Positions 8,917 through 42,707 of a stretch of 51,733 nt of DNA are shown in pieces (position 1 is the first letter of the stretch; the number at the start of each line of letters is the position of its first letter). Both the position numbers and the translations under genes were made by a program. The DNA comes from an uncultured Eubacteriales bacterium (GTDB lineage Bacteria; Bacillota; Clostridia; Peptostreptococcales; Anaerovoracaceae): the NCBI GenBank assembly GCA_902786815.1, contig CADADV010000013.1:1-51733 (forward strand), in the 5' to 3' direction. The notes under the pieces are model-generated. The model did not search any database and had not been told where the DNA came from. It saw only the letters and a program-made list of their open reading frames with translations.

Positions 8917-8988
8917 GTGACAGTTTCCTCCGGATTAAGGCGTACCGTGAGCCGCCATCCGGAGACAAATGAAAGGAGAAAGAAAACC

Positions 8989-9639
8989 ATGAAAATTATC
9001 AATGCGAGTTATGAAATCATCCGGCCCAACATGGACGGGCCGGAAGCCAGAAACGCCATTTATCAGCTGATCGAACAGGCTGGGAGGACCTGCTACAAGA
9101 GTGAAGACAGGATTACTCCGGAAAGCGCAGCAAAGTTCGTTTCCGACACCGTAAAGCGCGGACATGAGGCCATGCTGGAGCATGCGTCTATGACGGTCAA
9201 GTTTATTGTCGATCGGGGCGTATCTCATGAGCTGGTGCGTCATCGTCTTTTCAGCTTCGCCCAGGAAAGCACCCGTTACTGCAACTATAGTAAGGACAAG
9301 TTTGGAAAAGAGATCACGGTTATCAGGCCGCTGTGGCTGCAGGACGATCTGGCGAGGGATCTATGGGAAACTGCATGCGACTCTGCAGAAAAGGCATATT
9401 TCCGTCTCCTGGATGAAGGGTGGTCTCCGCAACAGGCAAGAGCTGTGCTGCCGAACAGTCTGAAAACAGAAGTGGTAATTACAGGGAACATGAGGGAATG
9501 GCGTCACTTCTTCCGGCTGAGGGCAGCCGGCACAACAGGCACACCTCATCCTCAGATGGCAGAAGTGGCAATTCCGCTTTTCCTGAAAGTACGGGAATAC
9601 ATGCCGGAGTTGTTCGGAGACATTAAGCTTCCGGAGTAA
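8989..9639 (+). CDS. thyX: FAD-dependent thymidylate synthase ThyX
   Basis: A 216-residue flavin-dependent thymidylate synthase that methylates dUMP to dTMP using methylene-tetrahydrofolate, FAD and NADPH. The ThyX signature RHRLFSFAQESTRY is present (RHRxxSxxxxSxR type, about residues 82-95), with HEAMLEHASMTVKFIV before it and EWRHFFRLR later, all family landmarks. ATG 8989 follows GAAAGGAGAAAG. It gives the phage its own dTMP supply, useful with the MazG- and NrdR-like genes nearby. Confidence 0.95.
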   Translation: MKIINASYEIIRPNMDGPEARNAIYQLIEQAGRTCYKSEDRITPESAAKFVSDTVKRGHEAMLEHASMTVKFIVDRGVSHELVRHRLFSFAQESTRYCNYSKDKFGKEITVIRPLWLQDDLARDLWETACDSAEKAYFRLLDEGWSPQQARAVLPNSLKTEVVITGNMREWRHFFRLRAAGTTGTPHPQMAEVAIPLFLKVREYMPELFGDIKLPE

Positions 9640-14868: not shown

Positions 14869-15497
14869 AGATTGTGCAGAAAAAGCTTTCCGCCCTGCAG
14901 AAGATCGAGAAGAACATTCGCCGGCACAGTCCGAAGCAGCTGAACGAGTATGTCCGGTCCGTGAGGATGTTCGGGCAGATCCGGCCGCTGGTGATCGATG
15001 AGAAAGGCGTGATCCTCTGCGGCAACGGCCTGTATGACGCGATGGTGGCACTCGGATATGACAAAGCCGACTGCTACGTGGTGGCAGACCTGACCGAAAC
15101 CCAGAAGAAAAAACTGATGTTAGCCGACAATCGGGTGTACGAACTCGGCATGACCGACACAGACGCCTTCGAGGAAATCATCCGGAGTCTGGACGGCGAC
15201 GTGGACGTGCCCGGATGGGACGCCGATCTGCTGGAAACCCTGAACGCTTCCGTCCGGGAAGTGAACGCCATGGTGGACAGTTACGGCACCTACGACGAAA
15301 ATGACGTGCAGCGGTACGCAGGACGGCGGGAACCCGTCCACGGCAGCACAGGTGAAGCCACCGTGCCGGTGCAGGACTCCGGACAGGTTAATACCGCTTC
15401 CGGAGAACAGGCGCCTGCAGGGACCGCTGAGGGGCAAACAGAGGCATTCGTCATCTGTCCGCACTGCGGAGCCCGGATTCCGATCGGGGGTGCCTGA
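14865..15497 (+). CDS. ParB-like (IbrB-type) protein with C-terminal zinc knuckle
   Basis: A 210-residue protein. A ParB/sulfiredoxin-like domain covers residues ~1-110: SPKQLNEYVRSVRMFGQIRP, VIDEKGVILCGNGLYDAMVA (the equivalent of the GERR box), KKLMLADNRVYELG. A Ser/Gly-rich linker follows, then FVICPHCGARIPIGG, a single CxxC. It resembles the DNA-methylase-linked ParB proteins that recognise adjacent substrates. It overlaps the membrane-protein stop and is one base from the PAPS-reductase-like gene. ParB-like plus PAPS-reductase-like is the pairing known as IbrB/IbrA in E. coli. Confidence 0.8.
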   Translation: MKIVQKKLSALQKIEKNIRRHSPKQLNEYVRSVRMFGQIRPLVIDEKGVILCGNGLYDAMVALGYDKADCYVVADLTETQKKKLMLADNRVYELGMTDTDAFEEIIRSLDGDVDVPGWDADLLETLNASVREVNAMVDSYGTYDENDVQRYAGRREPVHGSTGEATVPVQDSGQVNTASGEQAPAGTAEGQTEAFVICPHCGARIPIGGA

Positions 15498-15498
15498 C

Positions 15499-16632
15499 AT
15501 GCCCGTGAAGAAGATGCAGAGCACCATGAACGTGCTGGAAGCGGCCAAAGGTCGGATCAAGCGTCTGTTTGACACCGGCATGAAGGTGTACCTGTCCTTC
15601 TCATCCGGAAAGGATTCCCTGTGCCTGGCTTCGCTCACCTACGACCTGATCCGGACCGGCGAGATCGACGGAAAGCAGCTGAAGGTGATCTTCATCGATG
15701 AGGAAGGGCTTTACCCGTCCATGGTGGAAGCTTCCGAACGCTGGAAGAAGAACTTCGAATCCGTCGGAGTGCCTTTCCTGTGGTACTGCCTTCCTTTCAA
15801 GCAGGTCTGCGTGATCGATCACCTGTCCAGTTCCGAGAGCTGGATCACCTGGGAGCCGGCGGCCAAAGATCGCTGGATGAGGGATCCGCCTCCATACGCG
15901 ATCATGAGCCATCCGGCGTTGAAGTATCCAGGCCAGATGAACTACCAGACCTTCTGCGGGAAGGTGTTCAACGACGGAATCAGCATGATCGGCCTGAGGA
16001 GCACGGAAAGCCTGACCCGGTATCAGTGCATTGCCAGAGCATCCTTCGATAAGGCGACCGGAAAGTTCTATCCGATCTACGACTGGTCGGATAACGACGT
16101 CTGGCTGTACATTAAGGAACGCGGCCTTGAGTTTCCTGAGATATACATGCGCCTGTACGAAGCAGGCGTGAGCAAGCGCCAGCTGCGGCTGTGCGCTTTT
16201 TTCGGTGACTGCACCACGCAGGGCCTGCGCTGGATCGCGGAGACGGACAACAATCTCTGGCAGCGCATCGAGCGGCGGGAACCGAACGCCTACCTGGTAC
16301 TCCTGTACTGGGACAGCGAAATGTTCCGGAGATCTTCCCGAAAACGGAAAGAGCTGGAAGAGGAACAGGAGGAAAAGGATTACAAGGCGCTGTGCAAGGA
16401 CCTGCTTTTCCTGAACACGGAAAAGTATACCATCGCGAAAGACACAAAGGCCAAACTCGACAGCTGGCGGAGCCTGTTCATCAAATCCTACGGTATCGCT
16501 ACGCAGAAGCACTACAAAACTATGTACGAGGGCATTCTGTACGGCGACCCCAAAATGCGCGTCCTCCGGATCCTCTGGCAGGAGATCTACCAGAATTACA
16601 ACGAGGGCATCAAGCGGGGTGATACCGCATGA
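15499..16632 (+). CDS. PAPS reductase-like (IbrA-type, DUF3440) protein
   Basis: A 377-residue adenine-nucleotide alpha-hydrolase. The PP-loop reads VYLSFSSGKDSLCLASLTYD (about residues 30-49). IDEEGLYPSM and the CGKVFNDGISMIGLRSTESLTR region follow, as in PAPS-reductase/IbrA/DndC relatives. The C-terminal ~120 residues (charged helix around KRKELEEEQEEKDY) fit the DUF3440 extension. Family members activate a substrate with ATP; DndC puts sulfur into DNA, while IbrA acts with IbrB in gene regulation. Here it lies between two ParB-like genes. The substrate is unknown. It overlaps the next gene by 4 bp. Confidence 0.85.
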   Translation: MPVKKMQSTMNVLEAAKGRIKRLFDTGMKVYLSFSSGKDSLCLASLTYDLIRTGEIDGKQLKVIFIDEEGLYPSMVEASERWKKNFESVGVPFLWYCLPFKQVCVIDHLSSSESWITWEPAAKDRWMRDPPPYAIMSHPALKYPGQMNYQTFCGKVFNDGISMIGLRSTESLTRYQCIARASFDKATGKFYPIYDWSDNDVWLYIKERGLEFPEIYMRLYEAGVSKRQLRLCAFFGDCTTQGLRWIAETDNNLWQRIERREPNAYLVLLYWDSEMFRRSSRKRKELEEEQEEKDYKALCKDLLFLNTEKYTIAKDTKAKLDSWRSLFIKSYGIATQKHYKTMYEGILYGDPKMRVLRILWQEIYQNYNEGIKRGDTA

Positions 16633-26578: not shown

Positions 26579-27319
26579 ATGGCGAAAGGACGCAAGAATT
26601 CCTGCCCGACTAATATTCGGAACTGGGGTATCTTCATCCAGGACAAGAGCGCGGTTTCTGAGACCTGGGTCCGTATCAAGGGCCTGGAAGAGCTGACTCG
26701 CAGCACGGACAGCGACACCGAAGACGGTTCCGCTGCTACCGATCTGTGGGAAGAGCCCTATGTCTCCAAGCGCAGCGGCTCCCTGACCCTGAGCGGCAAG
26801 CCGAAGGTGGATGCCGCTACCGGCGCTGTGGATCCCGGCCAGCAGATGCTGGATGACTATGCCACCAGCGGTGTCTGTGACGATGACGCTACACTGAAGA
26901 TCGTCGATCCCTACGGCACGGCGATCGTCGGCGACTTCATTGTCACCGGCAGCGAAGTCTCCTCCGATGAGGATGAAGACACCAAGAACTGGGATCTGGA
27001 ACAGGTCGGCGATGTGGATACTCTGCCTTATGTGCAGATGTCCAGTATCTCTCTGAAGGATGGCAACAGCGACGTGACCACCCTGTCCATTGCGGTCGGG
27101 GCCACTGCGAAGATCATCACCATCGTTTTCAATCCCACCAACGCCAGCAACCAGCGGTTCCGGATCAGCTCCAGCAACAAGCGGGTTGCCTCTGTTGGCA
27201 ATATCACCGACGATTCCTTCACAGTGAATCCGGTGAGCGCCGGCACTTCGAAGATCACCGTGACCACGGTCAACGGCGCGAAGACTGCCACCCTGACTGT
27301 GACTGTTACCGATTCGTAA
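26579..27319 (+). CDS. Major tail tube protein with C-terminal bacterial Ig-like domain
   Basis: A 246-residue tube subunit. The N-terminal ~155 residues form the tube domain (GRKNSCPTNIRNWGIFIQD, WVRIKGLEELTR, GKPKVDAATGAVDPGQQM). The C-terminal ~85 residues (ISLKDGNSDVTTLSIAVGAT to TATLTVTVTDS) look like a Big_2-type Ig domain decorating the tail surface. A close paralogue lies 11.5 kb downstream (38144-38953). Starts after GAAAGGACTGATTATCT. Confidence 0.85.
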   Translation: MAKGRKNSCPTNIRNWGIFIQDKSAVSETWVRIKGLEELTRSTDSDTEDGSAATDLWEEPYVSKRSGSLTLSGKPKVDAATGAVDPGQQMLDDYATSGVCDDDATLKIVDPYGTAIVGDFIVTGSEVSSDEDEDTKNWDLEQVGDVDTLPYVQMSSISLKDGNSDVTTLSIAVGATAKIITIVFNPTNASNQRFRISSSNKRVASVGNITDDSFTVNPVSAGTSKITVTTVNGAKTATLTVTVTDS

Positions 27320-36868: not shown

Positions 36869-37100
36869 CGGCACAGTAATGACCGGCAGTACGCTCCTTG
36901 AAAGCAGCGGACAGCTGTTCATTTATGTGATGAACGGCAGCGGGATCCGGGATGTGTTTAACCTCCTTATCGAGCCGACAAAGACCTGCCGGATCACAGC
37001 GCTTGCCAGTGGAGTGACAACCGTGAAGGAAGGTTTCACGAGGCTGATTGCCGTCCGGGATGAAGGAAACGGCCTGATTACGGCTGTTCTCGGCAAGTGA
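36843..37100 (+). CDS. Small hypothetical tail-region protein
   Basis: An 85-residue beta-rich protein (MDGTLTLNDGTVMTGSTLLE..., GFTRLIAVRDEGNGLITAVL). The AAAAGGAGG site is within the previous gene. The fold looks like a small structural domain, possibly a tail-tip decoration. Not recognised. Confidence 0.65.
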   Translation: MDGTLTLNDGTVMTGSTLLESSGQLFIYVMNGSGIRDVFNLLIEPTKTCRITALASGVTTVKEGFTRLIAVRDEGNGLITAVLGK

Positions 37101-37114
37101 CAGGAGGAAGTTCA

Positions 37115-38104
37115 ATGACTTTGGACATCATCGTTCCTCACTACAAAGAACCGTGGAGTGAAGGGAAAAAGCTGTTTGACATGCTGGCCCTTCAGCGGGA
37201 CGTGGATTTCTCCGAATTCCGGGTGATCCTGGTCAACGACGGCGAGGATCTGGATGTATATCCGGAGATCGTGAAGCAGAAGTATCCGTACCAGGTCGAT
37301 GAAGTCATCATCCCGCACAGCGGCGTTTCTGCTGCCAGAAACCGCGGAATGAAGCACAGCGATGCTGAATGGATCATGTTCTGTGACTTCGATGACACGT
37401 TCACCAGCATCTATTCCCTGCGTGTATTCTTTGACGCGATGGAATCCGAAAAACACGATATGCTCTGGACTCCGTTCTATGTGGAGCTGAACGAACAGCA
37501 TAAGCGGCAAATCCGGAGAAAGTTCAACTGGATCTTCATACACGGAAAGGTCTTCCGGAGAAATTTCCTGCGCAGCCATGACATTTCTTTTGAGGAATCA
37601 CTGTACTACAGCGAGGACACGGCATTCTGCCGGGTTGTCGAGATGGAAATCGAAGAAAACCGTATCGGAAAGATCATGAGTGAGATCACGCCGTATGTGT
37701 GGGCATACCGGCCGGGAAGCATCACAACCGATCCTCAGAACGTGTTTTCCAACGCTGTAGGCCTGTTCCGGAGGCAGAAATACGTGGCTGATCAACATAG
37801 GATCCGCGGACAGACTGAGCTTGCCGACGCCGTCTCGATCCGGGCTATGTACGATGCTTACGTGACACTGAACAGGACCGATCTGGACTGTGACAGAAGC
37901 GCGTTCAAGCAGGAAGTACTGGCCTTCTATCGGGATAAGCATGATACCATGACTGTCAGTGTGGGCGTTATGGAGACTGCTTATAAATCTTCCCTGAAGG
38001 AAGCCGGCCTCAGTGCGTCAGATTTGCCGCAGGACATGCCTTTCGGCCGGTGGTTGGGGCAGATAGCCGAAGAGATCCAGACAGACCAGAAAGGGCTAAA
38101 TTGA
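37115..38104 (+). CDS. Family 2-type glycosyltransferase (GT-A fold)
   Basis: A 329-residue glycosyltransferase. The nucleotide-sugar domain shows LDIIVPHYKE, FRVILVNDGED, SGVSAARNRGMKHSDAEWIM and the metal-binding FCDFDDT (DxD type, about residue 93). A YYSEDTAFCRVVEME stretch serves as the acceptor-side acidic motif. It transfers a sugar from a nucleotide donor; no membrane segment is seen. AGGAGG lies 8 bases before ATG 37115. Its place between tail genes and the DGR suggests that it glycosylates a tail protein or alters host surface glycans; which is unknown. Confidence 0.85.
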   Translation: MTLDIIVPHYKEPWSEGKKLFDMLALQRDVDFSEFRVILVNDGEDLDVYPEIVKQKYPYQVDEVIIPHSGVSAARNRGMKHSDAEWIMFCDFDDTFTSIYSLRVFFDAMESEKHDMLWTPFYVELNEQHKRQIRRKFNWIFIHGKVFRRNFLRSHDISFEESLYYSEDTAFCRVVEMEIEENRIGKIMSEITPYVWAYRPGSITTDPQNVFSNAVGLFRRQKYVADQHRIRGQTELADAVSIRAMYDAYVTLNRTDLDCDRSAFKQEVLAFYRDKHDTMTVSVGVMETAYKSSLKEAGLSASDLPQDMPFGRWLGQIAEEIQTDQKGLN

Positions 38105-38143
38105 CGCAAAAACAAGCAATCATCGCGGAAGGAAGTGAACTAT

Positions 38144-38953
38144 ATGAGAGGACGGAAGAACAACTGTCCGACCAGCATCAAAGACTGGCAGGTCAGCATC
38201 TGGAACCCGTTTGATCTGGCCTGGGTACGGATTCGCGGACTGAACAGTCTGAATTATTCCCAGGACAGCAGCACGGAAGATGGCAGCACAGCCGAAGATG
38301 ACTGGGAAGAACCGTATATCACGAAACGGAAGGCGAAGCTTTCTCTGGAAGGCAAGCCCGTTGTGGATGCTGCGACTGGCAATGTCGATCCCGGGCAGGA
38401 TCTGCTCAACGAGTTCGGCAAGCTGACCAGGTGCGCAGCTGACGCTCTGATCCGGTTCGTAGATCCGTACGGACATGCGCTGGAAGCGTATTACCAGATT
38501 ACAGCGCATGAGGTTTCCTCCGGCAAGGACGGTGACAAGATCAGCTGGGATTTGGACATGGTGGGCGAATCCGAATCCCTGCCGTATGTGCAGGTCAGCG
38601 GGATCTCCATTGTTTCCTTGGGAGAAGAACCGGAAACCATCGAGATGGACATCAACGATGCCCCGCGGCTGCTGCAGGTAGTCTTCACTCCCGAAAACGC
38701 CTCCAACAAGCGGTATTCGATCAAAACCGGCGGTCATGTTGTTCGTGTGGGCGATATCACGGACGGCTCGTTTACAATCGCTCCGCTGAAGGTTGGCGAA
38801 GGCACGGTGAAGGTAACCAGCATCAATAATGCGGAAACGGCTTCCGTGACCGTAAATGTGACCAACGAATCCCAGCCCTATATGAGCGGCGTGCTGGGTG
38901 TCGGCGTGCTCGGCTCGATGGTGCTGGGACGGTCCGCCATGAGTGCCGCTTAA
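38144..38953 (+). CDS. Second tail-tube-like protein (paralogue of 26579-27319)
   Basis: A 269-residue paralogue of the major tail protein. It shares GRKNxCPTxI near the start, WVRIxGL, STEDGS, WEEPYxxKR, GKPxVDAATGxVDPGQ and VDPYG in the same order, plus a C-terminal Ig-like domain (ENASNKRYSIKTGGHVVRVG). It then has a short extra Gly/hydrophobic tail (SGVLGVGVLGSMVLGRSAM) the first copy lacks. It may form an alternate ring or attach the DGR product to the tail. Start ATG 38144 with GGAAGGAAGTG upstream. Confidence 0.85.
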   Translation: MRGRKNNCPTSIKDWQVSIWNPFDLAWVRIRGLNSLNYSQDSSTEDGSTAEDDWEEPYITKRKAKLSLEGKPVVDAATGNVDPGQDLLNEFGKLTRCAADALIRFVDPYGHALEAYYQITAHEVSSGKDGDKISWDLDMVGESESLPYVQVSGISIVSLGEEPETIEMDINDAPRLLQVVFTPENASNKRYSIKTGGHVVRVGDITDGSFTIAPLKVGEGTVKVTSINNAETASVTVNVTNESQPYMSGVLGVGVLGSMVLGRSAMSAA

Positions 38954-38969
38954 GAAAGGATGATGAAGC

Positions 38970-39356
38970 ATGGCTTATGCATTGCATAATTTTCAGGATG
39001 GCCAGGTCCTGACGGGACAGGCAATGGATGACATCGATCAGGCGCTGCTCGAACATGACGAGGCGCTTACTCTGCTGAATCAGCAGATGCAGAAGCTCCG
39101 CGTGGTGGAAACAGGAACAGTTACCCTGACGAACAGTCAGGAATTCCCGTTCAACAACAGCCGGAAAACGGTTGCACTGGTAACAGCTCAGGCGAATTCG
39201 GATTACCTGGTGGACGTGGAAGTGGACGAAGCCAACGGAAACGTCGGCGAGGTCATCGTGTCTTCCAGGATGACGAACGGCTTTGCTATTGAGCACACCG
39301 GATCCGCTACGTCCGTCTCTGTCAATTACTTTGTGATTGGAGGGTTCACGGAATGA
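38970..39356 (+). CDS. Hypothetical protein upstream of the DGR target
   Basis: A 128-residue protein. An N-terminal helix (FQDGQVLTGQAMDDIDQALL) is followed by a beta domain (TVTLTNSQEFPFNNSRKTVA, GFAIEHTGSATSVSVNYFVI). The helix-plus-beta layout is common in trimeric receptor-binding or adaptor proteins. GAAAGGATGATG precedes the ATG. Coupled by ATGA to the next gene. Confidence 0.7.
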   Translation: MAYALHNFQDGQVLTGQAMDDIDQALLEHDEALTLLNQQMQKLRVVETGTVTLTNSQEFPFNNSRKTVALVTAQANSDYLVDVEVDEANGNVGEVIVSSRMTNGFAIEHTGSATSVSVNYFVIGGFTE

Positions 39357-39664
39357 TTATTGTCGATAAGAATGAAGGTCGGAAGATCGGCTACACGGAA
39401 GAAGAAACCGTGATCACCTTCGGGAACAGCGAACTGACGCTCAATCTGGCCGAGCTTCAGGAAGAAGAACCGGTGCATGTCACCATCTGCTACACGAAGC
39501 GGCATACGCTGACCACTGGGCGCGGCGGCATCACCTACGTGGCGGAGATCGATATCCCGGCTATTGAGTACACCGAATCCCAGGGAGAGGAAGGCGGTAT
39601 GGAGCCTCTGCCTCTGGATATGGAAAAGGTCACGCTTACGCTGTGGGCCATCGAGGAGGGATAA
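39353..39664 (+). CDS. Hypothetical protein just before the DGR target
   Basis: A 103-residue beta-rich, acidic protein (MIIVDKNEGRKIGYTEEETV..., EEPVHVTICYTKRHTLTTGR). It shares an operon with the variable protein, whose ATG is one base after its stop. It may be a chaperone or adaptor for that protein; no motif supports a firmer call. Confidence 0.7.
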   Translation: MIIVDKNEGRKIGYTEEETVITFGNSELTLNLAELQEEEPVHVTICYTKRHTLTTGRGGITYVAEIDIPAIEYTESQGEEGGMEPLPLDMEKVTLTLWAIEEG

Positions 39665-39665
39665 T

Positions 39666-40760
39666 ATGACTTCGAATACTGCGAACTTTGATCTTGCGGC
39701 TCTGGCACTGAAGGCGGCGTGTCCGAACAACGAGATTCTTTTTGATGACAAAGGCATGCCTTCTGTCATGGTGAAGATCCCGAAAATGACATACGCGCAG
39801 CTGGGGCTCGGCGACAGCACCGATGTGTTCCCGGCCTTCATCGTGAACGGACAGGAAGTCAACGAGATCTACATCTCGAAATTCATGAACATCGTGCAGA
39901 ACAGCAGGGCGTATTCGCTGCCCGGACGAGATTACGCAAACAGCATCAACTTTGAAAACGCCATCGCCAGGTGCACCTCCAAGGGCCGTGGCTGGCATCT
40001 GATGACAGCAATGGAATGGGGCCTGCTGATTCTCTGGTGTGAGCACAACGGGTTCATCCCGCTGGGCAACCTCGCCTATGGCAAGTATCACACCGAAACG
40101 AATTACAAGGCCATTCCCATGACGAAGGACGGAAACGGACAGATCCTGCATACTGCCGGCGGCACCGGGCCTCTGACCTGGTTCCATGACGGAACGCCGG
40201 GCGGTATCGCCGATCTGGCCGGAAACGGATGGGAGTGGACCGGCGGCGTCCGGACCGTGTACGGCGAACTGCAGGTGCTGGCCAACAACGACGCGGCGGA
40301 TTCCGGAAACGCGCAGACCGAGTCCGCTGCAACGTGGAAGGCCATTGATGCAGCAAGCGGAACACTGATCACACCCAACGGCGAAGGCACTACCCCCGGC
40401 AGCGTGAAGATGGATTATGTCAGCGGCGCCATCAAGTATGACACAACCATTTCCAGCCAGAGCGATTCCGGCCGTTACTGCAATTTCAACACAATCACCT
40501 ACAATTCCGAGACGATCAGCTCGGCAGCCGTAAGGTTCCTGCAGGCAATTGGGTTCCTGCCGATCACCGGGACGCTGTGCACCACCTATGGACGGTGCTA
40601 CTTTAACAACGGCGCTGCAGAACGGTGCTTCTACCGGGGCGGCAACTACAGCTCGTCGAACGAGTACTCGTTCCCGTCGTTCTACGGCCGCAACGCTCGC
40701 TCGTACACGGCCGCGGGCATCGGTTTCCGCTCCGCTTTTGTACAGCTGCCAGCTGCTTAA
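39666..40760 (+). CDS. DGR variable protein, formylglycine-generating-enzyme/C-type-lectin-like fold
   Basis: A 364-residue target protein. The core shows ISKFMNIVQNS, GWHLMTAMEWGLLILW and GGIADLAGNGWEWTGG, landmarks of the FGE-sulfatase/C-type-lectin fold used by many DGR targets. The last ~45 residues come from the variable repeat: CFYRGGNYSSSNEYSFPSFY and ending GFRSAF. Residues 329, 331, 340, 342, 347, 349, 350 and 351 differ from the template-encoded ones (Asn or Thr in the template). ATG 39666 is 2 bases after the prior stop, with GGAGGG upstream. By analogy with BPP-1 Mtd, it is probably the receptor-binding tip. Confidence 0.92.
   Translation: MTSNTANFDLAALALKAACPNNEILFDDKGMPSVMVKIPKMTYAQLGLGDSTDVFPAFIVNGQEVNEIYISKFMNIVQNSRAYSLPGRDYANSINFENAIARCTSKGRGWHLMTAMEWGLLILWCEHNGFIPLGNLAYGKYHTETNYKAIPMTKDGNGQILHTAGGTGPLTWFHDGTPGGIADLAGNGWEWTGGVRTVYGELQVLANNDAADSGNAQTESAATWKAIDAASGTLITPNGEGTTPGSVKMDYVSGAIKYDTTISSQSDSGRYCNFNTITYNSETISSAAVRFLQAIGFLPITGTLCTTYGRCYFNNGAAERCFYRGGNYSSSNEYSFPSFYGRNARSYTAAGIGFRSAFVQLPAA
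40622..40737 (+). repeat. DGR variable repeat (VR)
   Basis: A 116-bp copy of the template repeat. It matches the template at 105 positions and differs at 11 (40651, 40656, 40683, 40689, 40690, 40704, 40710, 40711, 40713, 40716, 40717). Every difference falls on a template A, replaced by G (6), T (3) or C (2). The last 20 bases, containing TCGGTTTCCGCTCCGCTT, are unchanged and act as the likely initiation (IMH-like) end. It lies at the 3' end of the gene, as in known DGRs. Confidence 0.97.
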
Positions 40761-40772
40761 CTGGGAACTGTT

Positions 40773-40792
40773 GTCACCGCGACAGCGGTGAC
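40773..40792 (+). promoter_or_regulatory. DGR target hairpin downstream of the variable repeat
   Basis: GTCACCGC (40773-40780) pairs perfectly with GCGGTGAC (40785-40792) around a GACA loop. An 8-bp stem with a GRNA tetraloop shortly after the VR is the cruciform element shown to aid target recognition in Bordetella phage BPP-1. Here it starts 35 bp after the VR. Confidence 0.75.
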
Positions 40793-40794
40793 CC

Positions 40795-40820
40795 TTTCCG
40801 CGCGAAGCGCGGAAATTTTA
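40795..40820 (+). terminator. Rho-independent terminator after the variable gene
   Basis: TTTCCGCGC (40795-40803) pairs with GCGCGGAAA (40807-40815) around GAA, followed by TTTTAT. It is only 2 bases from the target hairpin. It separates the tail/variable operon from the avd-template-RT operon. Confidence 0.75.
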
Positions 40821-40844
40821 TAAGCCCAAAAACGACCTTTTGCG

Positions 40845-40917
40845 ATCGGGCAAATTGACCGGATTCTAAGGCCAATCTGCCCGATTCGCACTCCTAAGTA
40901 TCTTTATCTGCTATAAT
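40845..40917 (+). promoter_or_regulatory. Promoter and dyad operator for the avd-TR-RT operon
   Basis: A TATAAT -10 lies at 40912-40917, 34 bases before the avd ATG, with no good -35 at standard spacing. Upstream, ATCGGGCAAATTG (40845-40857) and CAATCTGCCCGAT (40873-40885) form a 13-bp dyad with one mismatch and a 15-nt gap, suitable for an activator or repressor. This implies that retroelement expression is controlled separately from the late operon. Confidence 0.55.
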
Positions 40918-40951
40918 CCGACAGATTACACCAGAGGAGGACGGGTTCAGC

Positions 40952-41305
40952 ATGGCCACCGAAGACTTTAAGCTGCTGCAGAAGGTGCAGGATATGCTGG
41001 TCTACGGTTATCCTTTGCTGAACCAGTTCCCGAAGGCGGAAAAGTTTTCCCTGGCTCAGGATATCCGGCTGTGCATGAATGAAATGCTTCGCCTCACCAT
41101 CGCGGAAGAGAAGAAGAAATCGAAGGGAACAACGCTGGAAAAGCTGGACGTGGAAAACACTACGCTGAAGATCTTCCTGCGCGTAAGCATGGAGCTGAAG
41201 TATCTATCGAAGCACCATTACGGCGTATGGGAAGGGAAACTGGTGGAAATCGGCAAGATGATCGGCGGTTTGATCAAATCCGTCAGTGACAAACCGAAGA
41301 CATAG
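40952..41305 (+). CDS. avd: DGR accessory variability determinant (Avd-like)
   Basis: A 117-residue helical protein. It matches the Avd pattern: a LLQKVQDMLVYGYPLLNQFP helix, KAEKFSLAQDIRLCMNEML, then a second pair of helices with FLRVSMELKYLSKHHYGVWE. Avd is a four-helix-bundle pentamer that binds the RT and the template RNA and is required for mutagenic homing. AGAGGAGG is 11 bases before the ATG. The template repeat begins 17 bases after its stop. Confidence 0.88.
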   Translation: MATEDFKLLQKVQDMLVYGYPLLNQFPKAEKFSLAQDIRLCMNEMLRLTIAEEKKKSKGTTLEKLDVENTTLKIFLRVSMELKYLSKHHYGVWEGKLVEIGKMIGGLIKSVSDKPKT

Positions 41306-41322
41306 GGTTCAGACCATGTTTG

Positions 41323-41438
41323 ACGGTGCTTCTACCGGGGCGGCAACTACAACTCGACGAACGAGTACTCGTTCCCGTCGTTCAACGGCAACAACGCTCG
41401 CTCGAACACGAACACGAACATCGGTTTCCGCTCCGCTT
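41323..41438 (+). repeat. DGR template repeat (TR)
   Basis: The non-coding master copy, 701 bp downstream of and in the same orientation as the VR. It has 27 adenines; 11 are changed in the VR. In the VR reading frame it holds nine AAC and three ACG codons, six and two of which are altered. No single substitution of an A in this frame can make a stop codon, a known design of DGR templates. Confidence 0.97.
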
Positions 41439-41621
41439 CATCATTGGCCAGGCGTAAGCCTGACCATTGTCAGATGTTTCAGGCTCACGGGCCTGATTCC
41501 AGTACGGGTGATGATAAAGGGGTCTGACTCCTCGGTCGTAAAGACGGCAGAAAAAGGTTCGGCTGTGAAATCCGCTACCGGTATCCCGGGCTGATAAGCA
41601 CAGCAAAAGGATTGGGACGAA
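41439..41621 (+). ncRNA. Structured spacer of the DGR template RNA
   Basis: The 183 nt between TR and RT are non-coding. They contain a stem TGG-C-CAGGC/GCCTG-A-CCA with a GTAA loop (41445-41466) and a second, TCAGGC/GCCTGA (41479-41496). In BPP-1 the equivalent RNA downstream of TR binds the RT-Avd complex and primes cDNA synthesis, so this stretch is the probable functional counterpart. Confidence 0.6.
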
Positions 41622-42707
41622 ATGGAAAAGCACAGCGGAGTCTTTGAGGCGTTCTACGATTTCGAGAATCTGTATGGCGGATACCTGCTTGCCCGTCGCA
41701 ACAAACGGTTCAAGCCGGAAGTGCTGTCCTATTCGGCCCACCTGGAAGACAATCTGATCGATGCCCAGAACCATCTGGTGTGGCAGGATCTGATTGTGAA
41801 CGGCCTGCATCAGTTTTATGAGTATTTTCCAAAGGTTCGGCTGATCCATGCGTTACCGTTCAGGTTCCGTGTGATCAACTGCGCGGCCTACCGTGTTCTC
41901 TGGCCGATCTACAGCCGGAGCATGTACGAACACAGCTACGGCAGCATCCCCGGCATGGGACAGGTGAAAGCCGTTGATCAGCTGCAGAAGTGGCTGAGGC
42001 TGGCCAGGAATAAGCCTGACAAATGGTACATCGGGAAAATGGATGTGAAGAAGTTCTTCTTCCGTGTACCGGTGGACGTGCAGCTGCGTGAGCTCGGGAA
42101 ACCGCTGGATGACATAAAAATGATGTGGTTTCTGGAAACCATGATCCGGTGTGACGGCAGGGCCTTCGGGCTCCCGCTGGAAGTATCAGATCCTTTTGAT
42201 GTGGATATGGTACCCGGCATCGGAATGCAGGTCGGCAGCCTGATCAGCCAGATGACGGCCAACGTGGTGCTGACGCCGGTGGATCATTACATCAAACGGG
42301 TCCTTCAGGCGCCGTACTACATCCGGTACATGGACGATATGCTTGTCCTGGCACCGAGCAAACAGCAGGTCTGGGACATTATCGGAGATACTGACGATTA
42401 TCTGCAGGAGAGCTTCCAGCTGCAGCTGAACAACAAGACGGCTGTGAGGCCGGCTGAACAAGGCAGTGAGTTCATCGGAAAGGTGGTCACGGCCGACAAA
42501 ATCCATCTGCGAAAGGAATCATCCCTGCGGATGAAACGCCATCTGGATTATGTGAGAGAGGCCTACCGGGTCGGAGACGTACCGCTGGAATACGCAATGT
42601 CGGTTATCCAGAGTTACCTGGGACTTCTGAAACATACCTCAGATGACGCACTAAGAAACAAAATATGTGAGGATTACGTCCTCATCAGGGAATCGGCACC
42701 GGATTGA
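41622..42707 (+). CDS. DGR reverse transcriptase
   Basis: A 361-residue RT that copies the template RNA into adenine-mutagenised cDNA. Catalytic residues are Asp141 (IGKMDVKKFFFR) and the YMDD box Y236-M237-D238-D239 (YIRYMDDMLVLAP). Motif 4 reads GMQVGSLISQMTAN (about 203-214), of the form typical for DGR RTs rather than retrons or group II RTs. No maturase, RNase H or endonuclease domain is present. AAAGGA lies 10 bases before the ATG, and the stop codon is inside the loop of the following terminator. Confidence 0.95.
   Translation: MEKHSGVFEAFYDFENLYGGYLLARRNKRFKPEVLSYSAHLEDNLIDAQNHLVWQDLIVNGLHQFYEYFPKVRLIHALPFRFRVINCAAYRVLWPIYSRSMYEHSYGSIPGMGQVKAVDQLQKWLRLARNKPDKWYIGKMDVKKFFFRVPVDVQLRELGKPLDDIKMMWFLETMIRCDGRAFGLPLEVSDPFDVDMVPGIGMQVGSLISQMTANVVLTPVDHYIKRVLQAPYYIRYMDDMLVLAPSKQQVWDIIGDTDDYLQESFQLQLNNKTAVRPAEQGSEFIGKVVTADKIHLRKESSLRMKRHLDYVREAYRVGDVPLEYAMSVIQSYLGLLKHTSDDALRNKICEDYVLIRESAPD

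Follow-up and report, generated by a model that had tools for sequence, protein, structure and literature searches.

Diversity-generating retroelements (DGRs) of the kind considered here are already in print, with passages of PMC5883640, PMC11792537, PMC3240598, PMC6328139 and PMC8144416 covering Lagaffe-type DGRs, FGE-type targets, hairpins with GRNA loops and BPP-1-type part order, and with part of PMC11080232 describing one rumen prophage whose reverse transcriptase (RT) may belong to a DGR. Here, we analyze a DGR in a 51,733-nucleotide stretch of DNA from an uncultured Eubacteriales bacterium (contig CADADV010000013.1 of assembly GCA_902786815.1; the whole stretch is hereafter the window), in which a target gene with a variable repeat (VR) is followed by avd, a template repeat (TR), a spacer and an RT gene.

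Among known systems, the DGR of Bordetella phage BPP-1 (NC_005357) has the same part order and an Avd, with adenine-only differences detected over 119 bp. Its target is an FGE-type lectin; passages of PMC6328139 give this protein, Mtd, extra trimerising domains, which are absent from the single-domain model of the window target, and the BPP-1 spacer is not matched by our spacer model (R1, described below). The DGR of Faecalibacterium phage FP_Lagaffe (MG711461) has the target-avd-TR-RT order of the window, a target 47% identical to the window's, a 115-bp VR with 13/13 differences at A, and three small open reading frames (ORFs) upstream of the target, but differs in its P2-like baseplate genes, its RT (36% identical), a spacer unmatched by R1, and a second VR reported in a passage of PMC11792537. 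TaqVP, the DGR variable protein of a Thermus aquaticus prophage (PDB 5VF4), shares the fold of the window target along the whole protein and has its VR at the C-terminus, but is about 30% identical and comes from another host phylum. Finally, Bacillus phage BalMu-1 (NC_030945), which we take to be a Mu-like myophage, has an RT and a target that are 38.5% and 34% identical to those of the window and a spacer that matches R1 (E = 1.8e-7), but its TR lies 565 bp from its VR, 10/11 differences are at A, and an XkdT-like structural protein is annotated.

A complete DGR in BPP-1 order

An earlier note, made from the letters of this DNA, had claimed a complete DGR with its parts in classical order, and we could indeed locate every part, in the order of BPP-1 (target, GRNA-loop hairpin, avd, TR, spacer, RT):

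39666–40760, + strand: DGR target gene (ATG at 39666), encoding 364 aa of FGE-type C-type-lectin fold, with VR in the 3′ end
40622–40737, + strand: VR, 116 bp, 11 differences from TR
40773–40792, + strand: target hairpin, 8-bp stem, GACA (GRNA) loop
40952–41305, + strand: avd, 117 aa, bAvd PF22296 (E = 1e-25)
41323–41438, + strand: TR, 116 bp, 27 adenines
41439–41621, + strand: TR-RT spacer, conserved core 41469–41557
41622–42707, + strand: DGR RT, 361 aa, YMDD, RVT_1 (E = 3e-17), phrog_1423 (E = 1e-86)

We read this locus, with a probability of roughly 0.93, as a complete BPP-1-type DGR carried by a tailed, probably temperate phage of gut Clostridia, a reading supported directly by the parts themselves, the adenine bias, TR-to-VR transfer in the family, the fold of the target, the placement of the RT and the conservation of the spacer. 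Judged from its sequence, the window DGR is complete and apparently working; it is textbook in kind, and among its new details the spacer RNA is the most useful.

VR and TR form a direct repeat with a start-to-start distance of 701 bp and 105/116 identical positions. Each of the 11 differences is at a TR adenine (p = 1.7e-8, hypergeometric), and the 89 non-adenine TR positions are all identical in VR. The repeat length, distance, and counts of differing sites and adenines given in the earlier note were exact. In the target frame, VR alters eight codons, six of them AAC and two ACG. Scanning with the TR adenines left free returned no second VR in the window or in 69 loci, and a DNA search of the 2.2-Mb assembly returned no further full TR copy, with matches of only 15 to 19 nt. 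VR and TR share the same final adenine-free stretch, without a clear mismatch between an initiation-of-mutagenic-homing (IMH) site and its IMH* counterpart.

The target, avd and RT ORFs are all open. Avd clears the NCBIfam equivalog NF033474 (101 bits, cut-off 80), and the RT carries YMDD and a VGxxxSQ stretch, both of which we take to be marks of DGR RTs. Models of group II, retron and Drt enzymes match the window RT only far under their cut-offs, PADLOC ranks a general RT model first, and the top PDB match is 8ub7, labelled ‘Reverse transcriptase’ and presumably the BPP-1 RT complex. In a quick tree of 77 chosen RTs, which included three group II intron RTs and no retron RT, the window RT falls inside a 44-row set (99 in the Shimodaira–Hasegawa-like approximate likelihood ratio test, SH-aLRT) together with BalMu-1, FP_Lagaffe and Dulem virus 37. 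The three group II intron RTs stand apart from this set (support 100), and a plasmid RT without known DGR parts lies outside all others on a long branch. A grouping outside the DGR lineages was thus looked for and not found: the window RT clusters among phage DGR RTs, apart from the three group II enzymes. Separately, a genome from the same family as the window's (G118) holds four RT matches (L183, L189, L190 and L191), three of which show an equal 38% identity to the window RT with near-equal scores.

Target protein and the proposed mechanism

The target matches phrog_2889 along its length (E = 3e-102) and PDB 5vf4 with E = 5e-48, with an FGE-sulfatase match under the Pfam cut-off. Its structure model has a predicted local distance difference test (pLDDT) score of 94.1 and superposes on TaqVP (5vf4) with a template modelling (TM) score of 0.88. 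The FGE/C-type-lectin look that had been suspected from the letters is therefore borne out, and an FGE-type C-type-lectin domain with VR at its 3′ end is supported by the modelled fold. In the Klebsiella phages of records H93–H102, we also observed a target homologue that matches residues 24–329 only, i.e., without the VR end.

By analogy with BPP-1, the enzymatic steps would begin with RT-Avd binding an RNA that spans TR and the structured spacer, and copying it into complementary DNA (cDNA) while making errors at the adenines of the template. This cDNA would then take the place of VR in the 3′ end of the target, with the end common to both repeats and the downstream hairpin as guides. The C-type-lectin target probably sits at the tail tip, alongside the products of two small conserved genes immediately upstream, so that retrohoming would yield phages with altered binding sites. 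Receptor binding and a change of tropism are suggested by the modelled fold and its context, and taking the gene neighbors and the example of BPP-1 together, BPP-1-like tropism switching by the target is likely.

The best-surviving alternative, which we consider unlikely, is that the DGR is real but that the target mainly binds mucus, plant fibre or host glycans, and so tunes the places to which virions adhere instead of host range. It would suit a target that is a bare lectin-fold domain, as well as a neighbor (38970–39356) that resembles lectin-like fibre domains, and passages of PMC5883640 and PMC11792537 describe some Faecalibacterium phage DGR targets as Hoc-like and linked to mucus binding. 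Those Hoc-like targets (Mushu and Brigit) nevertheless differ in protein kind from the window target; passages of the same two reports liken the targets of Lagaffe, including a homologue of the window target, to BPP-1 Mtd.

Adenine-directed variation among relatives

We started from 102 rows (101 loci plus the window slice), of which 19 had no repeat pair: 18 in which the retrieved DNA lacked target, avd or RT, plus L016. From the 83 left, the exclusion of L056 (only 43 bp) and L086 (without an RT) gave 81, the removal of 12 rows with TR and VR the same as another row gave 69 (with L001 being the window), and L054, in which two TR units were compared with each other, was dropped to give 68 distinct repeat pairs. 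Across these pairs, window included, TR-adenine sites hold 874/894 VR/TR differences (887/943 with L054), and five of the 20 non-adenine differences come from a single locus, L051. Our repeat detector tolerates adenine mismatches; a symmetric rescoring that included L054 gave 873/944. The detector recovers the annotated BPP-1 TR, and on 41 further loci it left six pairless and returned several without adenine bias (e.g., L213, L121, L124 and L186).

Non-adenine sites carry a second signal. In 44 closer members, mismatches between a member's own TR and own VR occur at 15/3967 non-adenine sites, compared with 21,751/78,174 (28%) when VRs are set against other members' TRs. Since each VR agrees with its own TR at sites where the TRs of others differ, copying appears to keep VR matched to its own TR; in terms of sequence, TR and VR evolve in concert in these 44 members, the mark of TR-to-VR transfer in the family.

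We additionally compared VRs between different contigs at least 97% identical to each other, of which we found eleven pairs, nine with full-length repeats. Within the nine full-length pairs—assembled contigs, not reads, some possibly from the same or related samples—VR differs at 58/225 TR-adenine sites vs. 4/831 others (Fisher p = 5e-37), a signal due to five of the pairs (58/122 vs. 4/470 in an earlier pool of these five). In the clearest pair, L085/L100, the contigs are 99.84% identical over 8 kb, and VR differs at 13/25 TR-adenine sites and 0/87 others. Pairs under 97% identity (8/13) were not pooled; in several of them, differences between the TRs themselves lead to a larger number of non-adenine VR differences. 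An even spread of VR variation over all bases was looked for in these relatives and not found, as variation is concentrated on TR adenines. Collectively, these comparisons provide a strong signal of adenine-directed retrohoming in the relatives.

Several observations weigh against our main reading of the window DGR. VRs are identical in 6/11 near-identical pairs, namely four full-length pairs on different contigs (L017/L018, L022/L023, L038/L039 and L060/L061) and two with partial, 66-bp VRs that lie outside the pool (L036/L038 and L036/L039), and in the weakest of the five informative pairs, L091/L096, VR differs at 3/25 TR-adenine sites and 2/91 others. L051, the nearest relative of the window, has 16 VR/TR differences, 11 at its own TR adenines and five elsewhere, and its hairpin loop, GCCA, breaks the GRNA rule. 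In L016 (L016:4980-5860), target, avd, RT and spacer RNA are kept and TR and VR have drifted apart. Furthermore, the BPP-1 RT joins the window RT only in a wider 53-row set of our quick tree (support 87), and the target model is without an obvious tail-attachment domain. As for L051, its TR (L051:5702-5817) is other than AAC or ACG at four codons where VR looks AAC/ACG-derived, and comparison with the window suggests that the L051 TR itself acquired VR-like changes or that the assembly mixed the repeats. The L016 DGR is probably silent by this evidence, meaning that not every family member is active.

Could the window's own cassette likewise be decaying, with its parts intact and VR no longer updated in its phage? 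The drift in L016 illustrates that this can happen in the family, the identical VRs noted above fit it too, and there is one sequence of the exact phage to judge from. The agreement of VR with TR at every non-adenine position and the open RT, avd and target ORFs argue the other way, as do ten sites at which the repeats of L051 differ from those of the window and the L051 TR equals its VR, which imply copying since the window and L051 split; we therefore regard decay as very improbable. A chance or plain gene-duplication repeat next to an unrelated RT is refuted by the adenine-only differences, the same layout in relatives, and the recovery of the annotated BPP-1 TR by our detector. Bench tests are possible, since one member (L110), with a VR/TR pair and a spacer that matches the model, is carried by Fusobacterium naviforme ATCC 25832, a named strain from a culture collection.

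Multiple templates were observed in Fervidicella metallireducens: in L117:7020-7935 and L054:5020-5935 (the same sequence), avd is separated from RT by three 304-bp units in tandem, each made up of a TR and a spacer. The second and third units are nearly identical, the first is different, and VR fully matches none of them at non-adenine sites; by its sequence, this locus is a multi-template DGR.

The spacer RNA and a possible separate promoter for avd-TR-RT

The TR-RT spacer of the window contains three predicted helices:

41479–41486/41489–41496, + strand: spacer helix 1
41519–41522/41528–41531, + strand: spacer helix 2
41535–41538/41545–41548, + strand: spacer helix 3

Our alignment (A3) used 38/43 spacers, leaving out four close copies and one long spacer. 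The three helices pair in 93.2% of cells, and covariation reaches 0.545 vs. 0.289 in shuffled alignments (0/500 as high) and at most 0.206 in slid controls, although the helices were predicted from the alignment that was scored and are for that reason favored over their slid versions. One of five measures was unremarkable, with 8 double-sided change pairs vs. 7.6 in shuffles (292/500 as high), and two-sided changes occur in helices 1 and 3, with helix 2 changing on one side only. Taken alone, the window spacer folds no better than shuffles (core z = -0.9). The structured spacer claimed in the earlier note thus gains its support from the comparison with relatives; from the aligned sequences, the spacer is a conserved, covarying RNA.

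The search model R1 was built from helices 1 and 2 only, because alignment A4 misplaces helix 3. It matches 35/67 sources searched (39 matches, E up to 0.017), counting the window, which is in the model, and L054 and L117, which are one sequence; every listed match is on the + strand and at most about 800 nt before an RT match. Besides BalMu-1, R1 matches Vibrio phage VP58.5 (E = 1.6e-5) inside the 5′ part of the annotated RT gene. In the same search, BPP-1, FP_Lagaffe and Dulem virus 37 were unmatched, and with filters off the sole BPP-1 match (E = 7.7, wrong strand) amounts to none. Across 100 relative genomes, R1 returned the window plus one other match, which adjoins avd and RT homologues. 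Passages of PMC12875486 describe folding of the BPP-1 spacer, which recruits RT-Avd and serves to prime cDNA. The alignment-supported structure described here can be set beside the solved BPP-1 complex. Among the open-access papers listed on DGRs in rumen, phage, Oscillospiraceae, prophage and RNA structure, we found no report of this clade's spacer RNA.

Between target and avd, the hairpin listed above is followed by three further features:

40795–40815, + strand: second hairpin with a T-rich tail behind it, probable terminator of the target transcript
40841–40890, + strand: imperfect inverted repeat between terminator and avd promoter (fold z = -3.7)
40912–40917, + strand: extended -10 (TGcTATAAT), candidate promoter of avd-TR-RT

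The 36-nt stretch around the target hairpin has a fold z of -3.9. This hairpin lies 35 nt after VR, one over the 4 to 34 bp that passages of PMC3240598 give for the GC-rich hairpin with a 4-nt GRNA loop as a DGR feature. Among 44 family intergenic regions, which include close relatives, and against expectations from mononucleotide shuffles, a GRNA-loop hairpin lies within 40 nt of the target stop in 36, a hairpin of any loop with a stem of at least 7 lies within the same distance in 40 (0.5 expected), and at least two hairpins lie within 100 nt in 35. We considered the second hairpin as a second homing signal and set this aside, as the T-rich tail makes a terminator likelier.

TATAAT occurs in 22/44 of these regions (2.3 expected), and 18 of the 22 lie 37 to 44 nt before avd; TGnTATAAT occurs in 12/44 (0.16 expected). 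The other half of the regions are without TATAAT, and a full sigma-70 scan returned no promoter at 40912–40917 and no -35 match. From these motif counts, avd-TR-RT may have its own extended -10 promoter. A palindrome, AATAACG-N5-CGTTATT, was also observed in 12/55 target-avd regions (L017, L019, L021, L026, L029, L033, L035, L037, L038, L045, L047 and L086) vs. one place in 534 kb elsewhere in the same loci. An operator or a terminator was considered for it; as an operator of the avd promoter it was dropped from our explanation, because the window is without it.

It is possible, at somewhat less than even odds, that the clade has a class of DGR template RNA to itself, namely a TR-RT spacer module that covaries, is shared with Bacillus and Vibrio phage DGRs and is unrecognisable in BPP-1. 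As part of the same possibility, the avd-TR-RT unit would lie downstream of a terminator and be driven by a conserved extended -10 promoter of its own, so that transcription for mutagenesis would be separate from that of the virion genes and might also occur in the lysogen. A separate avd-TR-RT promoter, if real, would make the timing of phage hypermutation testable. More broadly, the locus adds a deep, well-preserved clade of gut Firmicutes phage DGRs, in which sequence alone suffices to trace mutagenic retrohoming.

Phage setting and neighboring genes

The assembly to which the window belongs, as contig 13, spans 2.2 Mb in 45 contigs and is 91.9% complete with 0.29% contamination. Tail module genes around the DGR support the tailed phage that had been proposed, and the window encodes a terminase, portal, major head protein, tail tube, tape measure, Dit-like protein, tail endopeptidase and holin. 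We call the phage probably temperate because an integrase-like ORF lies at the right end of the window, where it runs off the contig. The closest record, L051 (55.4 kb), contains both ends of the window, co-oriented and separated by about 7 kb, consistent with a single circular gene order of which the window is missing a piece. Closer relatives are mostly Oscillospiraceae or Clostridia metagenome-assembled genomes by their record titles, and titles of relatives include roe deer, red deer, sheep and ‘Lapin’ (read as rabbit), and it is these titles that support a gut origin. Scans of the window returned no tRNA and no Rfam family at the gathering threshold.

Three genes precede the target:

38135–38953, + strand: paralogue of the tail tube protein at 26579–27319, not a DGR part
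38970–39356, + strand: small upstream neighbor, probable small tail fibre, whose model has a helix ahead of a lectin-like beta domain
39353–39664, + strand: second upstream neighbor, phrog_8734 match

The two small genes are kept in 49/53 fetched stretches with enough upstream DNA, or 42/46 distinct contigs, and the model of the 38970–39356 product (pLDDT 78.7) has as its top Foldseek match the receptor-binding domain of the Pam1 tailspike (E = 9e-4). The tail protein that the earlier note had called duplicated is indeed a paralogue, and its proximity to the DGR is incidental, because among the 46 contigs only the closest relative has it: the tube paralogue and the glycosyltransferase gene occur, besides the window, only in L051/L081 (one contig), and both were rejected as DGR partners for being shared only with this nearest relative. 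The glycosyltransferase gene (37097–38104) is of family 2 and lies within the tail module. Elsewhere in the window, we observed a phage-borne ThyX-type thymidylate synthase gene (8917–9639) and a gene resembling 3′-phosphoadenosine 5′-phosphosulfate (PAPS) reductase (15301–16632).

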